In this document: piece after piece, positions 2,744 through 31,212 of the stretch
Numbering within the stretch: the first letter of the stretch is position 1
How the letters are laid out: each line of letters opens with the position of its first letter
Source of the DNA: a virus
Virus record (IMG/VR): IMGVR_UViG_3300048835_000147
Location: 1-31,212 of that record
Strand: one strand, 5' to 3'
DNA length: 31,212 nt
Notes under the pieces: model-generated
Database searches by the model: none
What the model was told of the DNA's origin: nothing
The model's input: the letters and a program-made list of their open reading frames with translations, nothing else
Translations under genes and position numbers: made by a program

Positions 2744-2760
2744 CCGCTACGCTGCTCGGC
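2744..2760 (+). promoter_or_regulatory. Leaderless-type promoter (TACGCT, 7 nt before ATG)
   Basis: GCCGCTACGCT is followed by 7 nt and then ATG 2761. The same element with the same spacing occurs at 15790-15806, and a variant at 12132-12148. With a TANNNT -10 box, transcription would start at or next to the A of ATG. No ribosome site is present. No -35 box is visible. Confidence 0.55.
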
Positions 2761-3204
2761 ATGAATCCGAGCATCGAGAGCGACCACCGCACAGAGGACG
2801 GCAAGCCGGCCGGAGGGACGACCACCGCGCCGGGCGTGACGATCGAGTGGCAGAACGGGCCGCTGGCGACCTGGTTGCAGCCGGGGCCGGGCCTGTGTCC
2901 TTGCGGCGCTGCTGCGACGTGGACCTACGATCCGGAGACGATGGCGCCCTCGCCCGTTCCGGACGTGACGGAGTTCTGCGAGCTCCACGGGCCGAACTCG
3001 CTGCCGCGCCTGGAGCGCACGGGAGCGTTCGTGGAGGACGTGATCGCGGCGGCGCTCGACCGGATCGAGCACTACCAGACGTCCGAGTTCCGCTGCCGCG
3101 AGAATGCGCTGGCGATCACGAAGCTGGAAGAGGCGCTGCACTGGCTGGCGCACCGCACGGCCGATCGCGAGCGTCGCGGCGTCGAGGGCACCCACGCCCG
3201 GTGA
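2761..3204 (+). CDS. Protein with Acb2/Tad1-like C-terminal helical hairpin (148 aa)
   Basis: The start at ATG 2761 is set by the abutting TACGCT element; the frame is open upstream but unsupported. Residues about 46-85 include LCPCG and CELHG, four Cys/His that could bind zinc. The last 45 residues read as two helices with ENALAITKLEEALHWLAHR at about residues 114-132, then a basic tail RERRGVEGTH. This ITKLEEAxxWL pattern matches, from memory, the Acb2/Tad1 hairpin family of phage proteins. Known members bind cyclic oligonucleotides or Thoeris signals and so blunt CBASS or Thoeris defence. That function is inferred, not shown; it could be an unrelated hairpin protein. The gene couples to the next through a GTGA overlap. 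Confidence 0.6.
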   Translation: MNPSIESDHRTEDGKPAGGTTTAPGVTIEWQNGPLATWLQPGPGLCPCGAAATWTYDPETMAPSPVPDVTEFCELHGPNSLPRLERTGAFVEDVIAAALDRIEHYQTSEFRCRENALAITKLEEALHWLAHRTADRERRGVEGTHAR

Positions 3205-3449
3205 CGGATGACGCGAAGACGAGCCCGACCGGGCCAATGTCAGCCATCGCCGCGCTGTCGGGGCGGTCGCTGACGGACCTGTACCGGCTCTTCCGCATGG
3301 AAGGGTCGCCGAGCCCGGTCGCGCACGTCGCGGGCGTGCCTGTGTACGACCTGGACCGCGCGATGACGTGGCTGCACCCGGAATCCGGGGCTGATGCGGG
3401 GCTGCTGGCGCGCGATGCGGTCGTGAAGCTCCAACCGCCGTCCGTATAA
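3201..3449 (+). CDS. Small unknown protein upstream of portal (82 aa)
   Basis: GTG 3201 overlaps the previous stop (GTGA), so it is the favoured start; ATG 3238 is the alternative. The protein reads SGRSLTDLYRLFRMEGSPSP and ends KLQPPSV, with a possible small helical core that might bind DNA or protein (LTDLYRLF, then VYDLDRAMTWL). I cannot place it in a family. Its TAA stop (3447-3449) lies inside the TATAAC of the portal promoter element, so gene end and promoter are superimposed. The terminase genes that usually precede portal are not here. Confidence 0.65.
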   Translation: MTDDAKTSPTGPMSAIAALSGRSLTDLYRLFRMEGSPSPVAHVAGVPVYDLDRAMTWLHPESGADAGLLARDAVVKLQPPSV

Positions 3450-3468: not shown

Positions 3469-4899
3469 ATGGTCGTGCACGCGGAAAATCGGGGGATTCG
3501 AGGGCGCCTGCGCGCCTGGACCCCTTTGCGGGCGCTGACAGCAGCAGGTTCTCCTCTCGTCGAGGCCCGGCTGACTCCCGGTGGACCGATTCGGTCGCAG
3601 CCCGACTACATGGGCACTGCTGCGGAGCCGGCACGTCCGGATTCGATCCGCGCACGTTCGGAGGAGTGGCAGACGAAGGCTCTGCTCTACGCCGAGGCCG
3701 TTCCGGAGCTCGCGGGCGCCGCTGCGCTCGTTCGGGCGACGATGGAGGGCGTGACGTGGGTCGTCGAGGGCGGAAACGACGCGACTCGCAAGCGGATCCA
3801 GGCCCGCGTCGATGCGTTCGACAAGGAACGCGCTGCGGAGCTCATCTTCCTCACCGGCGACGCCTACATCGCGGTCCCGAACGATCCTGGCAGCGGAACG
3901 CCGGTCGAGGACGTCGAGGCGCCGTATTCGCTGTCCGTGGCCGAGATCAAGGTCGCGACTGACATCGGCCAGAAGGATCAGGTCAAGGGGCCGAACGGCG
4001 AGTGGGTCGACCTGGTCGAAGAGGGCTCCGACCGCCCGATTCCCTTCATGCGCGTCTGGCGCAAGTCGAAGTCGAACCGCTGGAAGGGCGCGAGCCCCGT
4101 CAAGGCGGCAATGGACCTGCTGGACGCGATGTACGTCGCGCAGATGGTCGATACGGCCACGCAGAACTCCCGGCTCGTGCACGCGGGCATCGTCTTCTGG
4201 CCGACGAACGCTCCGGACATTCCGGTGAAGGCCGGCGAGGATCCGACGCCCGGATCGCGCCAGGCCATGCTCGCGGAGTTCGTCAACGCGACGGACAAGA
4301 AGATCGACCTCATCAACAAGGGATTCGACGCCTCAAAGCCGTTCATCGTCATGTACGACCCCGGCAAGGGCGGCGAGGCGACGAAGTACCACCCGGAGAT
4401 GTTCCGCGTCGAGCGGGAGGATCTCGCCGAGCAGCGAGCGACCCGCGTGCAGACCGATCAGCTTCGGCTCGCCACCGCGCTCGAACTGCCCGTCGAGGCA
4501 GTGACATCGCAGGGCACGAGCGGCGCCAACCGCTTCTCGGTGCATCAGATCGACGTCGACAAGTGGAAGACGTGGGGATCGGCGTTCGACAAGCTGATCC
4601 GCGTCGAGTTCGAGAAGCGCATGGTCAAGCAGTACGGCAAGGAATACTCGCTCAAGACCGACTCCTCGAACCTCGTGAAGAAGCCCGACCAGACCGACGT
4701 GATCGTGAAGCTCGCGCAGATGGAGCAGGTCACGCCGGAGTCGGCGGTCCAGGCGCTCAAGGACGCCTCGATCGACGGGCTCGTGGCGCAGAAGCCGCCG
4801 GAGACGGGGCCGAAGCTCAACCGAGCTCCAGGTCAGCCGTCGGACTTCGGTCGCGGCGAAACCGATCGCGGTGGGGGCCGCTTCCGTGACACGCCATGA
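3469..4899 (+). CDS. Portal protein
   Basis: This 476-residue protein would form the dodecameric ring at the capsid vertex through which DNA enters and leaves. The start ATG 3469 has GGGAGG 4 nt upstream. Phage-portal features include a central IPFMRVWRKSKSNRWKGASPVKAAMDLL stretch (split here by position, about residues 192-219), which resembles the wing/stem region of siphovirus portals. A late segment LATALELPVEAVTSQG then SGANRFSVHQID (about 331-360) also fits. The C terminus is Gly/Arg/Pro-rich and probably disordered. The length is normal for actinophage portals. It overlaps the next gene by ATGA. Position ahead of protease and capsid supports the call. Confidence 0.85.
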   Translation: MVVHAENRGIRGRLRAWTPLRALTAAGSPLVEARLTPGGPIRSQPDYMGTAAEPARPDSIRARSEEWQTKALLYAEAVPELAGAAALVRATMEGVTWVVEGGNDATRKRIQARVDAFDKERAAELIFLTGDAYIAVPNDPGSGTPVEDVEAPYSLSVAEIKVATDIGQKDQVKGPNGEWVDLVEEGSDRPIPFMRVWRKSKSNRWKGASPVKAAMDLLDAMYVAQMVDTATQNSRLVHAGIVFWPTNAPDIPVKAGEDPTPGSRQAMLAEFVNATDKKIDLINKGFDASKPFIVMYDPGKGGEATKYHPEMFRVEREDLAEQRATRVQTDQLRLATALELPVEAVTSQGTSGANRFSVHQIDVDKWKTWGSAFDKLIRVEFEKRMVKQYGKEYSLKTDSSNLVKKPDQTDVIVKLAQMEQVTPESAVQALKDASIDGLVAQKPPETGPKLNRAPGQPSDFGRGETDRGGGRFRDTP

Positions 4900-5249
4900 C
4901 CGACTACGACGCACTCTCCCAGCGCCAGCGCGAGTTCGAGAAGGACGCCAACGCGCGCTTCCACGACCACGGCAAGCACATCTCTCGGATCGAGGGCATC
5001 TTCGAGGAGCGCACGCGCGCGCTCTCGGAGGCTGACCACGAGCAGCGCGCGCAGATCGCGGCGATGGGGAAGCGCATGGACAAGGTGGAAGAGCGGCTGA
5101 CCGCGAAGATCGACGGCGTGGGCAACAAGGTCGACGAGCTCGGCAAGGACGTCATCAAGCAGGGCGCGAGGCTCGCCATGTACGTCACGGCCGGCGGCAC
5201 GATCGGTGTCGTCGCGCTCAACACGGTCGCGCGCCAGCTATTCGGCTGA
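4896..5249 (+). CDS. Coiled-coil protein with C-terminal membrane segment (117 aa)
   Basis: ATG 4896 overlaps the portal stop. Residues 1-90 are charged and heptad-like (SQRQREFEKDANARFHDH, later MDKVEERLTAKIDGVGNKVDE), a predicted long coiled coil. Residues about 92-115 (LAMYVTAGGTIGVVALNTVA) form one hydrophobic segment. This layout recalls XhlA-type membrane-associated lysis accessories, but such proteins normally sit by the endolysin, while this one follows portal. It could alternatively anchor portal or prohead assembly at the membrane. A second, more holin-like gene lies at 28901-29194. Function uncertain. Confidence 0.7.
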   Translation: MTDYDALSQRQREFEKDANARFHDHGKHISRIEGIFEERTRALSEADHEQRAQIAAMGKRMDKVEERLTAKIDGVGNKVDELGKDVIKQGARLAMYVTAGGTIGVVALNTVARQLFG

Positions 5250-5253
5250 CCCG

Positions 5254-5268
5254 CGTATAACGGGGCCG
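5254..5268 (+). promoter_or_regulatory. CGTATAACGGGGCCG promoter element, copy 2
   Basis: Exact consensus copy, 26 nt upstream of ATG 5295. An AGGAG ribosome site at 5284-5288 lies between them, so this transcript should have a leader of roughly 28 nt. Confidence 0.65.
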
Positions 5269-5294
5269 ACACCGAACCTTCGCAGGAGATCTCA

Positions 5295-5672
5295 ATGCCC
5301 GTCGCACATGGAGCCACCGTCACCGTCGCAGCCGAGGCCGCCAACGCCCGCGCCGTCAGCATCCAGTTGACCGGCTCGATGCGCCAGGCGCTCACCGGCC
5401 GCGCGACCGTCCGTGGATTCGTCACGTCCGACGCCGCCGGCCTGGAGGCCGTCGAGTTCGTCGGCGACGACACCGTGCCCACCGTCGGCGCGAAGGGCGA
5501 CCTGCTCTCCGCTTCCGGCGCCGTGTTCGAGGCGCTCTCGAACGCGACTGGCGAGGTCGATCTGGTCCTCACGAACGCGAGCGACCAGGCGAAGACGCGC
5601 TACCTCACGCTCGACGCAGGCGGTCGCCTGCTCGATCCCGTCGCGATCGTCTTCGCCGACGACACGCCCTGA
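5295..5672 (+). CDS. Small β-rich head protein, possible decoration protein (125 aa)
   Basis: ATG 5295 has AGGAG 6 nt upstream and its own TATAAC promoter element. The protein is Ala/Val/Thr-rich with alternating strands: ATVTVAAEAANARAVSIQLT, then GDLLSASGAVFEALSN and a terminal GGRLLDPVAIVFADDTP. It has no Cys and no membrane segment. It fits a compact β-sandwich, and its place between portal and protease next to the capsid gene suggests a capsid decoration or minor head protein. No motif proves this, and an adaptor role is possible. Confidence 0.6.
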   Translation: MPVAHGATVTVAAEAANARAVSIQLTGSMRQALTGRATVRGFVTSDAAGLEAVEFVGDDTVPTVGAKGDLLSASGAVFEALSNATGEVDLVLTNASDQAKTRYLTLDAGGRLLDPVAIVFADDTP

Positions 5673-5691
5673 TCGGGGCGGCTCGGCCGGG

Positions 5692-5706
5692 CGTATAACG
5701 GGGCCG
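5692..5706 (+). promoter_or_regulatory. CGTATAACGGGGCCG promoter element, copy 3 (protease, leaderless)
   Basis: Exact consensus copy whose last G is the first base of the GTG start codon at 5706. TATAAC ends 6 nt before the start, so initiation at the start codon (a leaderless mRNA) is predicted. No ribosome site is present. Confidence 0.65.
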
Positions 5707-6656
5707 TGAAGCGCATCCCGACACTCCTGGACTTCCAGCCGAACCTCGATCTCGAGGGCCGGCGAGTCTCCGTCGATCGCGACAGTGGTCGGATCGCGGT
5801 TCGCGTCGCCAACTACGGCGAAGTCCACTCCGGGTTCGGCCCGGAGGTCAAGGTGCCGCGCAACGCGAACCTCGATGCCGCGCACGTCGGTACCGCCGAC
5901 CTGCCGGACGGATCGAGCCTGCGCGTGGCGGTGCTGCCGATGCACACGGCACACGCGCCGGCCAACCTCCAGGCGCTCCACGCGGCCGCATGGTACGAGA
6001 ACTCCGGCCTGGGCGTCGCCCGTGGTCGGTACTCGACCGACGAGAGTGGCGTGCGCTTCGACGGCCTGCTCTTCGACGACATCACCGACGCGCAGATCGA
6101 CCGGCTGACCGCCGGCTCCGCGTCGGGCGACTGGCGATCGGCAATCGCCCTCAAGTCGTTCGGTGACTTCGAGCACGCCCCAGCCGATTTCGTCGGAAGC
6201 TGCCTCGTCAACATCGGCGGCTACTCCGACACCTACCGCCAGGCGCCCGCCGAGCGGTTCGCCCTCGTTGCATCCGCAGCGGGGGACTTCATCTCGATCG
6301 AGGACGCGACAATGACCGGCACGCTCACCGCAGGCGCAGGCGACTCCAACGGCGACGGCGCAGCCGCGCTGCCCGACGGCTGCAACGGTGCGTGCACCGG
6401 CTGCGACTGCCAGACCGGGACGACCGACGTCAACACCGGCGCCGACGGAGCGGGCGACGTCGTGACGATCACGGCCTCCGCGCTCCTGGAGCTCGTGGAG
6501 GCGTCGGGCGACCAGTTGCTCGGCACGCCGGTTCTCGAAGAGGCGAAGACCGTGCTGGTCGCGGGCGGCTTCATGGAGGCTCCGAACCCGGACGCCGAGC
6601 GGCTCGCACGCCTGGAGCAGCACTACATCGACTCGGTGTTCAACGCCGCCGACTGA
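5706..6656 (+). CDS. Prohead (capsid maturation) serine protease
   Basis: The 316-residue protein should cleave the scaffold-like part of the capsid protein during prohead maturation. Residues 79-85 (MHTAHAP) supply the candidate catalytic His. Residues 138-143 (SASGDW) match the serine motif S-x-SGDWR of actinophage prohead proteases. Between them FDGLLFDDITDAQ is the usual linker of that family. The C-terminal third (about 200-316) is a low-complexity Gly/Asp stretch with a Cys cluster (CNGACTGCDC, about 227-236) and a terminal helix that may guide it into the prohead. The GTG start sits on the end of a promoter element with no ribosome site, implying leaderless and perhaps modest expression. 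Placement right before the capsid gene supports the call. Confidence 0.8.
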   Translation: MKRIPTLLDFQPNLDLEGRRVSVDRDSGRIAVRVANYGEVHSGFGPEVKVPRNANLDAAHVGTADLPDGSSLRVAVLPMHTAHAPANLQALHAAAWYENSGLGVARGRYSTDESGVRFDGLLFDDITDAQIDRLTAGSASGDWRSAIALKSFGDFEHAPADFVGSCLVNIGGYSDTYRQAPAERFALVASAAGDFISIEDATMTGTLTAGAGDSNGDGAAALPDGCNGACTGCDCQTGTTDVNTGADGAGDVVTITASALLELVEASGDQLLGTPVLEEAKTVLVAGGFMEAPNPDAERLARLEQHYIDSVFNAAD

Positions 6657-6668
6657 CCTGGCGACGGC

Positions 6669-6704
6669 CGTGCGTATAACGGGGCCGAAGCGACTTTCAA
6701 CACC
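6669..6704 (+). promoter_or_regulatory. Promoter element copy 4 with conserved 5' UTR (capsid)
   Basis: CGTGCGTATAACGGGGCCGA (6669-6688) is identical to the tail-tube copy at 13288-13307. TTTCAACAC then follows at the same distance in both (6695-6703 here). The shared block extends beyond the promoter into the transcribed leader. A GAGGGG ribosome site follows at 6710-6715. Confidence 0.7.
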
Positions 6705-6721
6705 GCCATGAGGGGCAAGCC

Positions 6722-8467
6722 GTGAACGTCAAGGAACTGCAGGACAAGCTCGAGGCGCTCCGCGCCGAGCTCGCCGAGATCAAGTCCGGAGATCGCACGC
6801 CGGAGACGGCCGAGAAGCTCACCGCGAAGCGCGCCGAGATCGCCGAGGCGCAGACTGAGCTCACGGCAGCGGAGGCCCAGGCCGCCGAGGTCGAGGCCGC
6901 GTTCGCGGATGCCGACGGTGACGAGGCTCCGGCCGCGCCTGCCGACGGTGACGGCGACGGCACCGGCGACGCGGCTCCCGCCGCTCCCGCTGCTCCTGCA
7001 ACCCCGGCGACTCCCGCTGCTCCCGATGCTCCGGCTGACGGCGACGCGGGCGGCGCTGGCGACGGCGCTGCGACGGGCGGCCCCGTGGCCCTGGCAGCTT
7101 CCGGTGCGGGCGACCGCGCTGGCGGCGACGCCGGCAACGACGCCGACGCGATGCAGCCGATGGTCCTCACTGCCTCCGGCAGCGCAGGCCAGGCCGGGCT
7201 CACGCCGGGCATGAAGCTCGACCGCGACTCGCTCGGCTCGATCCTCACCGCTGCGGGCGCCGCAGCGGGCGTGATCTCGCCCCGCACGCGCGTCGTGTCG
7301 ATCGACCGCTTCGGCGAGGGCGTCGAGCCCCTGTCGAACAACCTCTCCACGATGGAGAACACGCGGCTGCTCGCGAAGGCGCGCGGCGACTTCGCGAAGT
7401 CGAAGATCGGCAACAACCGCCCCGTGGCGCTCACCGCCGCCGGCTGCTTCTGTGGCCCGGACGAGCTCATCCGCACGACCGGCGTGGTCGGTCGGCGCGG
7501 CCGCCCGTTCGCGGCGATGTTCCCGACCATCCCGATCTCCGGCGGCTTCCGAGCCATGCCGGACCTCGCGTTCAACGTGGACACCGGGCTCCGCTCCGGC
7601 GTCTCGCAGTGGACGTGCACCGACCAGGGCGACGTGGACCCGGACGCTCCGGGCACCTGGAAGCCCTGCGCGGAGATCGAGTGCTTCACGGAGGCGACCT
7701 ACGAGCCCTACGCGGTCGTGGCCTGCGTGACGGTCGAGCGGTTCCACCGCTGGGCGCACCCGGAGCAGGTCGATGCCTGGATCAACCTGCTCGGCATCGA
7801 GTACGACTCGCTCGCCGAGACGCTCCTGATCGACCAGATCGAGGCCGAGGCCGGCACGCCGCTCACCGTGGGCGACACCGGCGACCTCATGGCCGACCAC
7901 TCGCTCGTGGCGAAGATCATCTACGCCCTGTCCAGCATGGCGTACCCGCTCGGGTACCAGTTCCGCGAGGGTGCCGGCGTCCTGGAGGGCTACACGCTCT
8001 CCGTGCCCGTCGGCATGGCCGAGGCGCTGTACGCCGACGAGAAGCTGCGAGGCTTCCCGTCGGGGATCAACTCGAAGGAAGCGATCGTCGCGGCCATCGA
8101 GAGCGGCACCGGCGTCCGGATGGTCGAGCGACTCGACGAGAGCACGTCGCGCAAGGCGGCGGCTGCGGCCACCGTCGCGGCGATGAACGCGGGTGGCGCG
8201 ATCGACGACGCCACCACGCCGCTGCTCCCGCCCACGTTCCGGATGTACCTCATTCCGCTCGAGGGCTACGTCCACGGCGAGGGCACGATCGTCTCGGCCG
8301 ACTGGCATGTGGACGACCCGCTCCTGCGCCAGAACAAGCTGCGCTACTTCCTGGAGAACGCCGAGATCCTGGCGAACCTCTCGGTGCGCAAGCCGCACAT
8401 CATCGACGTTCCCGGCGAGATCAAGGGCTCCTACACGGACCTCGTGCTCGCACCCGGCAACGTCTGA
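6722..8467 (+). CDS. Major capsid protein with fused scaffold-like N terminus (581 aa)
   Basis: This protein forms the icosahedral shell. GTG 6722 has GGGG 6 nt upstream. Residues 1-60 are a coiled coil (KELQDKLEALRAELAEIKSG), the expected delta/scaffold domain. Residues about 60-150 are an Ala/Pro/Gly/Asp-rich linker, probably disordered and removed by the protease at 5706. The HK97-like body follows. Its end, FRMYLIPLEGYVHGEG then DDPLLRQNKLRYFLENAE, matches the C-terminal pattern of actinophage capsid proteins. No separate scaffold gene is visible. The shared promoter/UTR block with the tail tube fits high expression. An intergenic hairpin follows at 8497-8536. A five-codon frame (ATG 6708) overlapping the GTG is probably accidental. 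Confidence 0.85.
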   Translation: MNVKELQDKLEALRAELAEIKSGDRTPETAEKLTAKRAEIAEAQTELTAAEAQAAEVEAAFADADGDEAPAAPADGDGDGTGDAAPAAPAAPATPATPAAPDAPADGDAGGAGDGAATGGPVALAASGAGDRAGGDAGNDADAMQPMVLTASGSAGQAGLTPGMKLDRDSLGSILTAAGAAAGVISPRTRVVSIDRFGEGVEPLSNNLSTMENTRLLAKARGDFAKSKIGNNRPVALTAAGCFCGPDELIRTTGVVGRRGRPFAAMFPTIPISGGFRAMPDLAFNVDTGLRSGVSQWTCTDQGDVDPDAPGTWKPCAEIECFTEATYEPYAVVACVTVERFHRWAHPEQVDAWINLLGIEYDSLAETLLIDQIEAEAGTPLTVGDTGDLMADHSLVAKIIYALSSMAYPLGYQFREGAGVLEGYTLSVPVGMAEALYADEKLRGFPSGINSKEAIVAAIESGTGVRMVERLDESTSRKAAAAATVAAMNAGGAIDDATTPLLPPTFRMYLIPLEGYVHGEGTIVSADWHVDDPLLRQNKLRYFLENAEILANLSVRKPHIIDVPGEIKGSYTDLVLAPGNV

Positions 8468-22600: not shown

Positions 22601-23250
22601 AGATCGACGCGGCGCTCAACGCGGCCTCGAAGAAGTACGGCGTCGAGCTCGCGCTGGTTGCGGCTGTCGCGAAGCAGGAGTCGGGCTTCCGTCCGAACGT
22701 CACGTCGCCCGCTGGCGCCGGTGGCCTCATGCAGCTTATGCCCGCCACGGCGCGTAGCCTCGGCGTGTCCAACGTGTTCGATCCGTTCCAGAACGCCGAC
22801 GGCGGCACGAAGTACCTCAAGCAGCTTCTTCAGCGCTTCGGCGGCCGCTACAACCTCGCGATGGGCGGCTACAACGCCGGCCCGAACGCGCCCGGTCTGG
22901 ACGAGGGACAGCTTCCCCCGTACTCCGAGACGCGCAACTACGTCCGGCTGGTCACGAGCTACCTCGAGGACTTCCGTCGCAAGTTCGGCGGCTTCCGCGA
23001 AATGGGCGGCGGCGTGCAGGCGGGCAAGGCATACGTCGTGGGCGAGAAGCGCCCGGAGATCTTCGTGCCCAACCGCGCCGGCACGATCCTCCCGGACGCC
23101 GCCGCTAGTCTGTCCAGCGCCGGATCGACCTACCAGGACAACCGCACCATCAACAACACGATCAACACGCAGGCGAGTGACCCGGAGGCTGTCGCCGACG
23201 TCTTCGACGCCCGCACGCGGTCCAGCATGACCGGAGTGATCTTCCGATGA
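16687..23250 (+). CDS. Tail tape measure protein with M15-type and SLT cell-wall domains (2187 aa)
   Basis: It sets tail length and should help DNA enter through the cell wall. Residues about 25-300 are coiled coil with a 40-residue repeat (EKKANESIR units). Hydrophobic stretches lie near residues 319-342 and 978-998, and long charged helices run to about 1750. A peptidase M15-like domain shows SRHEDGVAAD (1879-1888, the SxHxxGxAxD zinc motif) and DHVHLEW (1939-1945). A lytic transglycosylase (SLT) domain follows, with KQESGF (catalytic Glu 1998), GLMQLMP (2013-2019) and YNAGP (2062-2066). The C-terminal GEKRPEIFVPNRAGTILP is typical of tape measures. It begins without a ribosome site right after a TATAAC element and overlaps the next gene by ATGA. 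Confidence 0.95.
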   Translation: MAGNRDIHGSVVLDVKVDGEQTAKQRLESAFATLEANVNVNADFNKAQVQAALTAASKGLFVKVGVVFDDGDAKRSFRDMERRLDALTLAREKAALDGAKAEKKANESIRVDNAKTGNARKRVNDQIRLSTEKTANSWVAAEKKANESIRLDYTRTANHKVRLDNANRAFHERIETGLTAFELRELEKRETARVTSATRSNDKVRTQQSKGEQDRATARERGLVRLDVLEDQHLKRLEQYEAAAAQRRAVINSQLQARIAAQNNLFEQRQEIARQRVQDRLNAKPLIQRILINSNQINQSLAEFDRTVSRVLRTSLTAFTVWSAGVALAFGAAATAGVVAFARLETSATRAAAIVASDAFNESLLKNGRGITNFAEVSENAQKRITEASSKIALTTLFSPTEVTEGVRSLLQAGQDLETALLNIGPAAEFAQINEIELKEATDGLAAGLDSAGLQAKDSGALLDKFAFVAQNALGEASDYMTAFANKSAAAARAFGFSNDEALTLLALLGKTGTLGEEAGTQANIVFRELSRGAGRAGKAWQDAGIDINGPLNEMILKIGTLAAEVKRTQGRAGVAQLAEELGLTFRSVSSILQILPKAQELGLDGLNQLTEGISKSQGAVARQSEELKKTIGFQFDNLLDSFYVAFAKFGEAASDNVTSLFDKLAGSGGLIDQATPRVIEFGERFGALIGRIANFLDTDSFKNGVATLVESIEVTIRGVSEAFAAFSAAFDNAEKGASTFENVATAILAFARVSATVLPAFARILGTVFDFLIDNADAFETFAKLTLGVYALRKAYSLLILPLLTAADGIRKIRAALIAATGAEAANTVVGGIARVADAYGLLGKQAASAAASIELVQVANSTAFPTLGRGAAGGVAAKGATGNGATTAAVAGNAALLAPELSRVFKGGAGGANAARAATAFETITPAVAKGAGPIGRITALFVKLGDVFAKLVPGFIKGLPLIGRLATGFAKFAGPVGIVIALIDGAIGIFKGFFEEISKTKDESSEVGRTFAELKPIFDAVFASAKVAFAILFDVLAVVGRVGQSIGRLFGGLFNDILINFGDVIRGIKALFNGEFTVFLKAFGDVIINSITAPFRLAIGFVIDLVADLLGNLESVPVIGGKIEGVADGLRGAASATRDLRVNMSAAEVEADKVATSTGEIDLATQRAALSAKDLAYQNQTVARVASLSAQVFERAAARSVVQIDRTKAATVGADGAARNLLGTVGGITPTFQGMADAGVVGLSRIESAASATTAELLAMQAALQAGLGQAANAQNSIIDSAQQFALSEAQAGRGALSVEQVQANIAAQAEQRRRDRLVAAARKSRRDQKIIEDALGTDELGSLDATDTGAAAKPIQREFIDPDDAVQAAIDRLKPARKIAETNALISKVVGDAGKSYQLTRRDTILLAETMPRIDKAIEVQKKKVEELTTALDTLRNVQIKGTQAFSDAAFENEQAIKRLQLQRLDTLAVPGTTEESAAVKAIDDQIKALQTTAERASLVESLELDPLRRKLEETFNPVKEDTFANIIKSFNELSAAQETQTAKLTSQEAIQAKLNERLTGAQERYTKIDEAAQKSVEAFNKAQSAAAETATSLSSVGTSASAGARSVNRYSDAVENVPTGKGVVDKSLKGINDRVTELASQFTGAGARVVTLYTRGINQALVDVLQPALATVVERTLIYLRTPIAPAAKAGEAIMGGFLAGMKEGFGSPEKIGSVAWYLNVFIPKWIRENKGPVAYDATILVPAGQAVMEGFGKGLRGGFAQIQSFVKDVGPSLKEFISADAFSGRTATIMADIALGKSPDVNAAFEDIKAAMVVTAGSFPGDADPSLSFLHPTLSLADTIQQAFGIIKALGGGLNTGGPGQISRPDGSTSNNSRHEDGVAADIGTGTSQPTAASLKLFEQAKKLLGSVFRQVIHNGVGLTAGGGSFPDSQHFDHVHLEWLQGLGFNENSGKIGKPPVVDIPGAPPQIDAALNAASKKYGVELALVAAVAKQESGFRPNVTSPAGAGGLMQLMPATARSLGVSNVFDPFQNADGGTKYLKQLLQRFGGRYNLAMGGYNAGPNAPGLDEGQLPPYSETRNYVRLVTSYLEDFRRKFGGFREMGGGVQAGKAYVVGEKRPEIFVPNRAGTILPDAAASLSSAGSTYQDNRTINNTINTQASDPEAVADVFDARTRSSMTGVIFR
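16987..17136 (+). repeat. 120-bp-spaced direct repeat in the tape measure coiled coil
   Basis: A 30-bp segment starting GCCGAGAAGAAGGCCAACGA at 16987 recurs at 17107 with one mismatch. It encodes AEKKANESIR at a 40-residue period, suggesting internal duplication in the length-determining region. Confidence 0.75.
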
Positions 23251-29866: not shown

Positions 29867-29885
29867 GCCGGGCGCATTGCCCGGC
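29867..29885 (+). terminator. Hairpin between lysis and replication-type genes
   Basis: GCCGGGC (29867-29873) and GCCCGGC (29879-29885) pair perfectly around GCATT. No U-run follows, so termination strength is uncertain. It sits after the endolysin and just before the promoter element at 29894. The gap 29821-29912 also has a run of eight G at 29837-29844. Confidence 0.45.
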
Positions 29886-29893
29886 AACGTCAG

Positions 29894-29908
29894 CGTATCC
29901 TGGAGCCG
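29894..29908 (+). promoter_or_regulatory. Degenerate copy 8 of the TATAAC element
   Basis: CGTATCCTGGAGCCG matches 11 of 15 positions of the consensus and keeps CGTAT, the GG-G core and CCG. It precedes GTG 29913, and its GGAG doubles as the ribosome site. Confidence 0.45.
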
Positions 29909-29912
29909 CGAA

Positions 29913-31212
29913 GTGACGGCCCCGGTGCGCGAGCAGTCGATCCCGTTCTGGTGGCGCGACCCGGTGGAGCACTGCCGGTTGCGCGCGAAGTACGGGTCGA
30001 GCCAGAAGGCCGCGACTCGAGTCGAGCCGTCGATCTCGCCGCGCAACGCGCAGCAGTGGTGGCGCAAGCTCCGGGATGCCGGCTCTGTCGATGCCTCGGG
30101 CCGTCCGACAGGTGCCCCTGCAGCGCCGGACACGAGCAAGCAGGGTCGGCCCACCCGTAGCTCTCCGGACGGCGTGAGCCCCGGCGAGCAGGTCAAGGCG
30201 TGGAAGGACGGGTCGCGCCTCGAGATCTACACCGCCGTCAGCGAGACGGGCACGGGCGAGCTCACCGGCGAAGAAGTCCTCCGACGCAAGGGCTACGATC
30301 CGGCCGAGTGGGACTTCAACTTCGAGGCGACCGATTGGGACGCGGTGCTCGGCCGTGACCCGGTGACGGGCGAGCCGGTCGTCACGACCTTGCACCGCAC
30401 GAAGGTCGTCGCCGTGCGCCGGCCGGAGTCGTTCTTCGCGTTCGAGCTCCCGATCGGATGGAAGCCAGAGCCGGCGAAGCCCAGCGAGCGCGACTGGTCG
30501 AAGCCGCTGCTGATCCCCATTCTCGCCGACCCGCACGCGCCGAACTACCAGGTCGAGCTCATCGAAGCGTTCCTGGCGTGGTGCGAGGCATACCGACCCG
30601 AAGCCGTATGGTGCCTCGGCGACGCGGCCAACAACTCCCCCTTCGGGCGCCACGGGCACAACCGCCGCGCCGACCTCAACGTGAGCACGTCGGACGCCGT
30701 GGGCTCCACCACGGAGCTCCTGATCCGCATTGCAGCAGCGACGCCTGGAGCGAAGCGCACGCTGCTCTTCGGCAACCACGACTACTGGCTCGAACGCATG
30801 GTGCTGGCGCTCTTCCCGCGCCTGGCAGAGATGCGGCTGCACGGGGAGGAGAAGCCCCACCTGGCGATCTCGACGGTGTTGAAGCTCGATCAGATCGGAT
30901 GGGACTACCACTACACCGAGGGCGACTACCACGACGTCGACGTGGAGATCGTGCCGGGCCTCGTGGGTATGCACGGGACGCGCACCGGCAAGCACGGCGG
31001 CGCCCTCAAGGAGCTCGAACGCTGGGAGGGAGTCTCGATCATCCAGGGCCACGATCACACGCTGGGCATGACCGCTGTGCGCTACCGGCTGCCGAACCGC
31101 CGGTATCAGCAGCGGTACGGGATCTCGGCGGGCTCGGCGGCGAACGCAGACCTCGGCTACGACCCAGGCCACAACGTCGGGCAGGGCTTCCCGGTGCTGG
31201 CGCTGTGGCCCG
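29913..31212 (+). CDS. Metallophosphoesterase (MRE11-like nuclease) with N-terminal HTH-like region, partial
   Basis: GTG 29913 has GGAG 7 nt upstream; the frame continues past the right edge (433 codons seen). Calcineurin-like motifs occur in order: ADPH (Asp206, His208), LGDAANN (Asp237, Asn240 or Asn241), GNHD (287-290), GMHG (His354) and GHDH (379-382). These would bind two metal ions and hydrolyse phosphodiesters, as in phage MRE11-type exonucleases involved in DNA processing. Residues 19-50 (HCRLRAKYGSSQKAATRVEP, then NAQQWWRKLRDAG) look like a helix-turn-helix DNA-binding region. A linker and a charged domain (about 85-195) follow. It appears to start a DNA-metabolism module with its own promoter. 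Confidence 0.85.
   Translation, partial: MTAPVREQSIPFWWRDPVEHCRLRAKYGSSQKAATRVEPSISPRNAQQWWRKLRDAGSVDASGRPTGAPAAPDTSKQGRPTRSSPDGVSPGEQVKAWKDGSRLEIYTAVSETGTGELTGEEVLRRKGYDPAEWDFNFEATDWDAVLGRDPVTGEPVVTTLHRTKVVAVRRPESFFAFELPIGWKPEPAKPSERDWSKPLLIPILADPHAPNYQVELIEAFLAWCEAYRPEAVWCLGDAANNSPFGRHGHNRRADLNVSTSDAVGSTTELLIRIAAATPGAKRTLLFGNHDYWLERMVLALFPRLAEMRLHGEEKPHLAISTVLKLDQIGWDYHYTEGDYHDVDVEIVPGLVGMHGTRTGKHGGALKELERWEGVSIIQGHDHTLGMTAVRYRLPNRRYQQRYGISAGSAANADLGYDPGHNVGQGFPVLALWP

Follow-up and report, generated by a model that had tools for sequence, protein, structure and literature searches.

The window analysed here, 31,212 bases long, is the entire IMG/VR virus record IMGVR_UViG_3300048835_000147; further genes, the terminase among them, may be located beyond its ends. 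After a block of minus-strand open reading frames and a gap of about 500 bases, the first plus-strand gene is one of the tad1 type, and it heads a closely packed rightward run that continues with an 82-residue reading frame, the portal gene and head genes. The features of the locus are:

2748–2753, plus strand: TACGCT, possible −10 element of a leaderless promoter (weak; from TANNNT counts)
2761–3204, plus strand: Tad1-type protein of 147 amino acids (sequence, profile and predicted-fold matches)
2776–2850, plus strand: predicted N-terminal beta-strands, residues 6–10, 16–23 and 26–30, the short Tad1 sheet (AlphaFold2, VIA)
2866–3012, plus strand: loop insertion, about residues 36–84, with Cys46, Cys48, Cys73 and His76, a possible single zinc site (absent from relatives; low-confidence models)
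3031–3177, plus strand: predicted two-helix hairpin, residues 91–106 and 113–139 (AlphaFold2; 63–65% identity over residues 88–147)
3178–3201, plus strand: conserved C-terminal tail, GVEGTHAR (column counts)
3201–3449, plus strand: 82-residue reading frame of no assigned family, whose GTG start overlaps the end of tad1 by four nucleotides
3469–4899, plus strand: portal protein (phrog_776, 1.1e-13)

The 147-residue frame extends from the ATG at 2761 to a TGA ending at 3204, as placed by the preliminary description, and contains the stretches ENALAITKLEEALHWLAHR, LCPCG and CELHG quoted there. Its start codon is backed by the aligned amino-termini of relatives, for instance that of L003, an uncultivated-phage protein from IMG/VR. 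The third-position GC content is 0.91 in the N-terminal part, 0.88 in the insertion and 0.92 in the C-terminal part (0.86 in the portal gene); being high in all three parts, it indicates one coding frame throughout. The gene is real, and its similarity to Tad1 lies well outside chance expectation. A frameshift artefact as the source of the insertion was ruled out by the third-position composition of this segment and by both flanks lying in the same frame.

TACGCT ends seven nucleotides before the ATG, a spacing that fits the leaderless starts known in Actinobacteria, and a Shine-Dalgarno-like sequence was not seen. The motif TANNNT stands at a distance of 5–9 nucleotides from 0.6% of all window positions, 1.0% of the ATG or GTG triplets and two of the 29 candidate starts, and a search for sigma-70-type sites between 2200 and 3500 found none. 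Because the site was picked by a reader, it is only suggestive. A leaderless promoter, as proposed in the preliminary description, may thus be present at TACGCT; the independent expression derived from it is weakly supported, as the four-nucleotide overlap with the 82-residue frame and the run into the portal gene suggest co-transcription. Further upstream, the heptamers GCATTGC and GCAATGC cluster in 2400–2666, seven of their ten occurrences in the window starting between 2400 and 2644; they are partly palindromic, follow each other in steps of eight nucleotides, and are possibly operator or origin repeats. A direct repeat, TAAAAGGGTYTGTGTCANT, occurs twice in 2549–2596, the copies lying 26 nucleotides apart, and its core, GGGTYTGTGTCA, is found nowhere else in the window.

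On sequence and modelling grounds, the protein is almost certainly a Tad1 relative. Of 50,697 phage records compared by tblastn, 135 matched, and the best identities, 63–65% over residues 88–147, are with Bacillus phages. Tad1 of SBSphiJ7 (OM982674) is 63% identical over the last 60 residues, C-terminal tail included (2e-18), and its last strand, FQLGPV, resembles WQNGPL of the window; it differs from the window protein in having a longer N-terminal region and no Cys/His insertion, and in belonging to a different tree clade. The proteins of SBSphiJ7 and SPG24 (NC_030903) both carry a Tad1 annotation, and a passage of a review names the SBSphiJ7 protein as the one with which Tad1 was found (PMC12043709). 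Over strand and hairpin, the window protein and SBSphiJ7 Tad1 are 59% identical, compared with 47% for SBSphiJ7 Tad1 and CbTad1 and 40% for CmTad1 and CbTad1. PHROG 2428, listed without a function, takes both the window protein (1.4e-20) and SBSphiJ7 Tad1 (8e-47).

Relatives in viral contigs, taken from 80 of 102 loci listed, amount to 66 different proteins; the window protein and 63 of these form the family alignment of 64 rows, from which the contig-end fragments L047, L064 and L074 were left out. Using phmmer, convincing matches among PDB sequences were limited to two kinds of Tad1, represented by the solved chains 8kbb (2.4e-14) and 7uav (7.5e-9), and to phiKZ gp184 (8y6v chain I, 1.4e-5). 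The latter shares its C-terminal Tad1 domain with the window protein, but has about 130 additional residues at the N-terminus and belongs to the virion of a jumbo phage, from which it is injected. With a profile of the family alignment, the matches became 1.2e-25, 2e-21 and 1.4e-14, respectively, and the Tad1 match lengthened to take in the last strand. Profile-profile comparison of 20 insertion-free relatives with eight SBSphiJ7-type Tad1 proteins gave a probability of 99.9% (5e-37) over 89 columns. The Pfam hairpin model joining Acb2 and Tad1, PF24729, matches the window protein at 7.1e-6 and 26.6 bits, 0.4 below its gathering cut-off of 27, and matches 39 of the 64 alignment members at E-values up to 0.01; NCBIfam and PADLOC gave no match. 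The preliminary description had named a missing profile match or missing paired helices as refuting its assignment to the Acb2/Tad1 group; neither came about, even though the Pfam model stays just below its threshold, and the sequence and profile matches together with the predicted fold narrow the assignment to Tad1.

The AlphaFold2 model built on the family alignment has a mean pLDDT of 81.6 and a pTM of 0.65. Apart from the strands and the hairpin, it contains a helix at residues 69–76; pLDDT values are 84–96 for residues 1–30 and 92–99 for residues 91–140. The N-terminal strands end in Trp30-Gln31-Asn-Gly33, and three strands are assigned, compared with the four described for Tad1. In a Foldseek search the first 20 rows are all Tad1 (best 2.7e-5) and the next row stands at 2.1, with low TM-scores by query length (0.38–0.53). 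The first eight VIA rows are also Tad1, with Z-scores of 8.8–9.5 over 93–99 residues at 2.6–3.3 Å, covering model residues 1–140 to 1–146, and model residues 1–146 align with Tad1 12–124; the next row has a Z-score of 7.2 and covers the hairpin only. With helical models a Z-score below about 13 can be commonplace, so the case for the fold rests on the gap to the next VIA rows, on coverage of the whole chain and on the sequence match. The structures of CbTad1 (7uav, 7uaw, 8smd) and CmTad1 (8kbb–8kbd) resemble the model over the whole chain, with structural-alignment identities of 29–31% and 36–37%, respectively, and both lack an insertion at the loop in question. The predicted N-terminus is thus the short Tad1 beta-sheet. 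A fused new N-terminal domain, which the preliminary description had seen in the Cys/His stretch, was rejected on the basis of the alignment of relatives, the AlphaFold2 model and the whole-chain VIA match.

Seven residues, Gln31, Gly33, Gly88, Arg101, Asn115, Arg132 and Arg136, are invariant in all 64 rows of the family alignment, and position 105 is always aromatic (Tyr in 51, Phe in 13). CbTad1 and CmTad1 line up with Asn115, Arg132, Arg136 and this aromatic residue. Tyr105, Asn115 and Arg132 align with Phe82, Asn92 and Arg109 of CbTad1 if its chain has one extra leading residue; these three are the pocket residues that Leavitt and co-workers reportedly described in 2022, and the window protein has a counterpart for each. 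In the C-terminal tail, Glu142 is conserved in 60, Gly143 in 62 and Thr144 in 60 of the 64 rows; the corresponding tail of Tad1 lines the ligand pocket, according to a passage of the review (PMC12043709). Sequence homology to proven Tad1 extends over both the hairpin and the tail.

A tree of strand and hairpin (67 rows, 71 columns) places the window protein in a clade of 55 rows, with a support of 99/97 from a bootstrap that had not settled; the three Tad1 proteins in the tree whose structure or function has been determined lie outside it, SBSphiJ7 Tad1 grouping with CmTad1 (97/93) and CbTad1 being on a long branch. To our knowledge, no member of the 55-row clade has been functionally tested. 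L003, which is 51% identical to the window protein (tblastn), L004 and other IMG/VR relatives are full-length and have the same short N-terminus with G-N/K-P-A-G-G. With the window protein they mark a large group of short Tad1 relatives that occurs in uncultivated phages and stands apart from the tested ones. Outside viral records, a genome scan gave ten loci with Tad1 relatives, all on contigs titled as metagenome or isolate bins, and plasmid records gave one weak match to the window protein. The contigs of the ten (L085–L094), which may be prophage, viral or mis-binned, are labelled Amesbacteria, Omnitrophota, Phycisphaerales, Elusimicrobia, Heimdallarchaeota and others.

Judging from alignment and model, the Cys/His stretch, about 40 residues long, is inserted into the loop that joins the last strand to helix 1. 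It gives this Tad1 an unusual architecture, and to this extent the preliminary description was right. From Leu35 to the residue before Thr87 the window protein has 52 residues, while 59 of the 64 alignment rows have 14 or fewer; the others exceeding 14 are L011 (15), L040 (20), L052 (17) and L067 (28). The Tad1 relative at L067 (2355–2729) has a different insertion in the same loop, the 28 residues being counted from the Leu35 position, with three Cys residues otherwise arranged. In the full model the insertion has pLDDT values of 55–69; modelled alone, it forms a strand, a strand and a helix, with a pLDDT of 63. In both low-confidence models, strands are followed by a helix whose end carries the CxxH. 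Cys46-x-Cys48 and Cys73-x2-His76 could hold one zinc ion, a putative site suggested by the residue spacing.

No family match was found for the insertion in Pfam or PHROGs; its best match among PDB sequences has an E-value of only 0.51, and its best match in phage records one of 0.7. Searching viral contigs with it gave two loci, L084 and L083, neither of which is an insertion-bearing relative: L084 is the same contig as the insertion-free relative L068, and the match at L083, 31 residues, is too short for the insertion. The fixed Cys/His pattern occurs in 47 stretches of viral contigs, none of them a Tad1 relative with the insertion; one (L141) holds a Tad1 relative lacking it and another (L132) a weak, unrelated match. 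Among 80 of the 102 loci and with this one fixed pattern, no second relative with the Cys46/Cys48/Cys73/His76 arrangement was thus found. The literature searched for Tad1 with an actinobacteriophage or zinc-finger insertion does not report this architecture, which may be in print elsewhere. By sequence, the novelty of this Tad1-family protein is its Cys/His loop insertion, which none of the other relatives examined was seen to share. This insertion reveals a place at which Tad1 can accept additional modules, so that effects on ligand range and delivery can be tested.

The source phage looks like an actinophage, given that the tail protein at 23247–24668 matches 525 records, every organism name among the matches listed being an actinobacterial genus, and that the GC content of the record is 65–70%. 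The closest relative, L003, matches 56 annotated phage records, and not one of these bears the name of an actinophage. Relatives of the portal or the major head protein were found neither in phage records nor in viral contigs; PHROG profiles recognise these proteins (3469–8467), and their isolation suggests an isolated phage lineage.

We consider it probable that the gene encodes a Tad1-family sponge keeping immune effectors off, with the Cys/His loop most likely being a metal-stabilised flap. While family, predicted fold and conservation come from the window protein itself, its oligomer, ligands and immune target are carried over from the family. Like solved Tad1, the protein would assemble as a hexamer of three dimers. 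Each pocket would be formed between two protomers, one contributing its conserved loops and C-terminal tail and the other its helices, and would hold gcADPR isomers and cyclic dinucleotides; the trimer interfaces would hold cyclic trinucleotides. Sequestering these signals would keep Thoeris, CBASS or related effectors off during infection. The putative small metal-stabilised flap, for which the support is weak, may serve stability, ligand range or as a docking surface; the insertion could, on the other hand, hinder the ligand pocket or the hexamer. This reading points to anti-Thoeris or anti-CBASS sponges in phages of Actinobacteria.

It is unlikely that the protein is primarily a virion protein, a Tad1 fold that is packed close to the portal and leaves the particle together with the DNA, as a structural component or a delivered sponge. 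Its place at the head of the run into portal and head genes is in line with such a role, as are passages on phiKZ, one in which gp184, which contains a Tad1 domain, is injected from virions (PMC10449902) and one that speaks of injection of the phiKZ Tad1 (PMC13282480). Structural annotations are carried by the relatives in Lactococcus phage 1706 (H39) and Bacillus phages P59 (H11) and CM1 (H10), which are either wrongly annotated or sponges that, as in phiKZ, are associated with the virion. In other phages, however, the gene has no fixed link to head genes: nine of the 20 neighbouring proteins that were scanned at 11 loci have a PHROG match, namely five to DNA metabolism or antirepressor families, one to a terminase, one, weakly, to a virion protein, one to a glycosyltransferase and one to a family of unknown function. 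The 24 other window reading frames that were compared have no match at 1e-4 in 93 relative loci with flanks of up to 8 kb. This lack of a fixed neighbourhood is easier to reconcile with a mobile anti-defence gene than with a part of the head.

Distinctly unlikely is a Tad1 fold that has shifted to another ligand or role, for instance a nucleotide unrelated to immunity or a regulatory role exercised via the Cys/His module, and is no longer an anti-defence protein. The clade is distinct from the tested Tad1 proteins, and the insertion, not seen in other relatives, lies in a loop adjoining helix 1; yet both the window clade and the SBSphiJ7 type of Tad1 retain the pocket-type residues and the C-terminal tail. 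Within the sponge interpretation, it is rather improbable that a metal-binding loop docks the protein to the portal or the ejected DNA for co-entry with the genome, or that zinc or redox state gates the pocket. Were docking true, the sponge would be present before the first alarm signals; were the loop to bind metal, this would be an actinophage Tad1 with a module absent from the Tad1 literature searched.

By sequence and predicted fold the closest kinship is to Tad1, not Acb2, and an Acb2-type sponge, suggested by the shared Pfam hairpin model and by 7uq2 in the VIA list (Z-score 6.5), the structure of the Acb2 protein T4 Vs.4 bound to cGAMP, is held to be very improbable, as neither phmmer nor profile searches of PDB sequences gave an Acb2 chain and 7uq2 is a partial fold match (Foldseek E-value 6.3, residues 90–147 only, 6.5 Å), while Tad1 aligns over the whole chain. 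The beta-strands are a Tad1 feature, according to a passage of the review (PMC12043709).

At the other end of the window, a metallophosphoesterase-like reading frame (29877–31211; phrog_221, 3.1e-17) is cut by the end of the record and has weak relatives in Rhodococcus phages.
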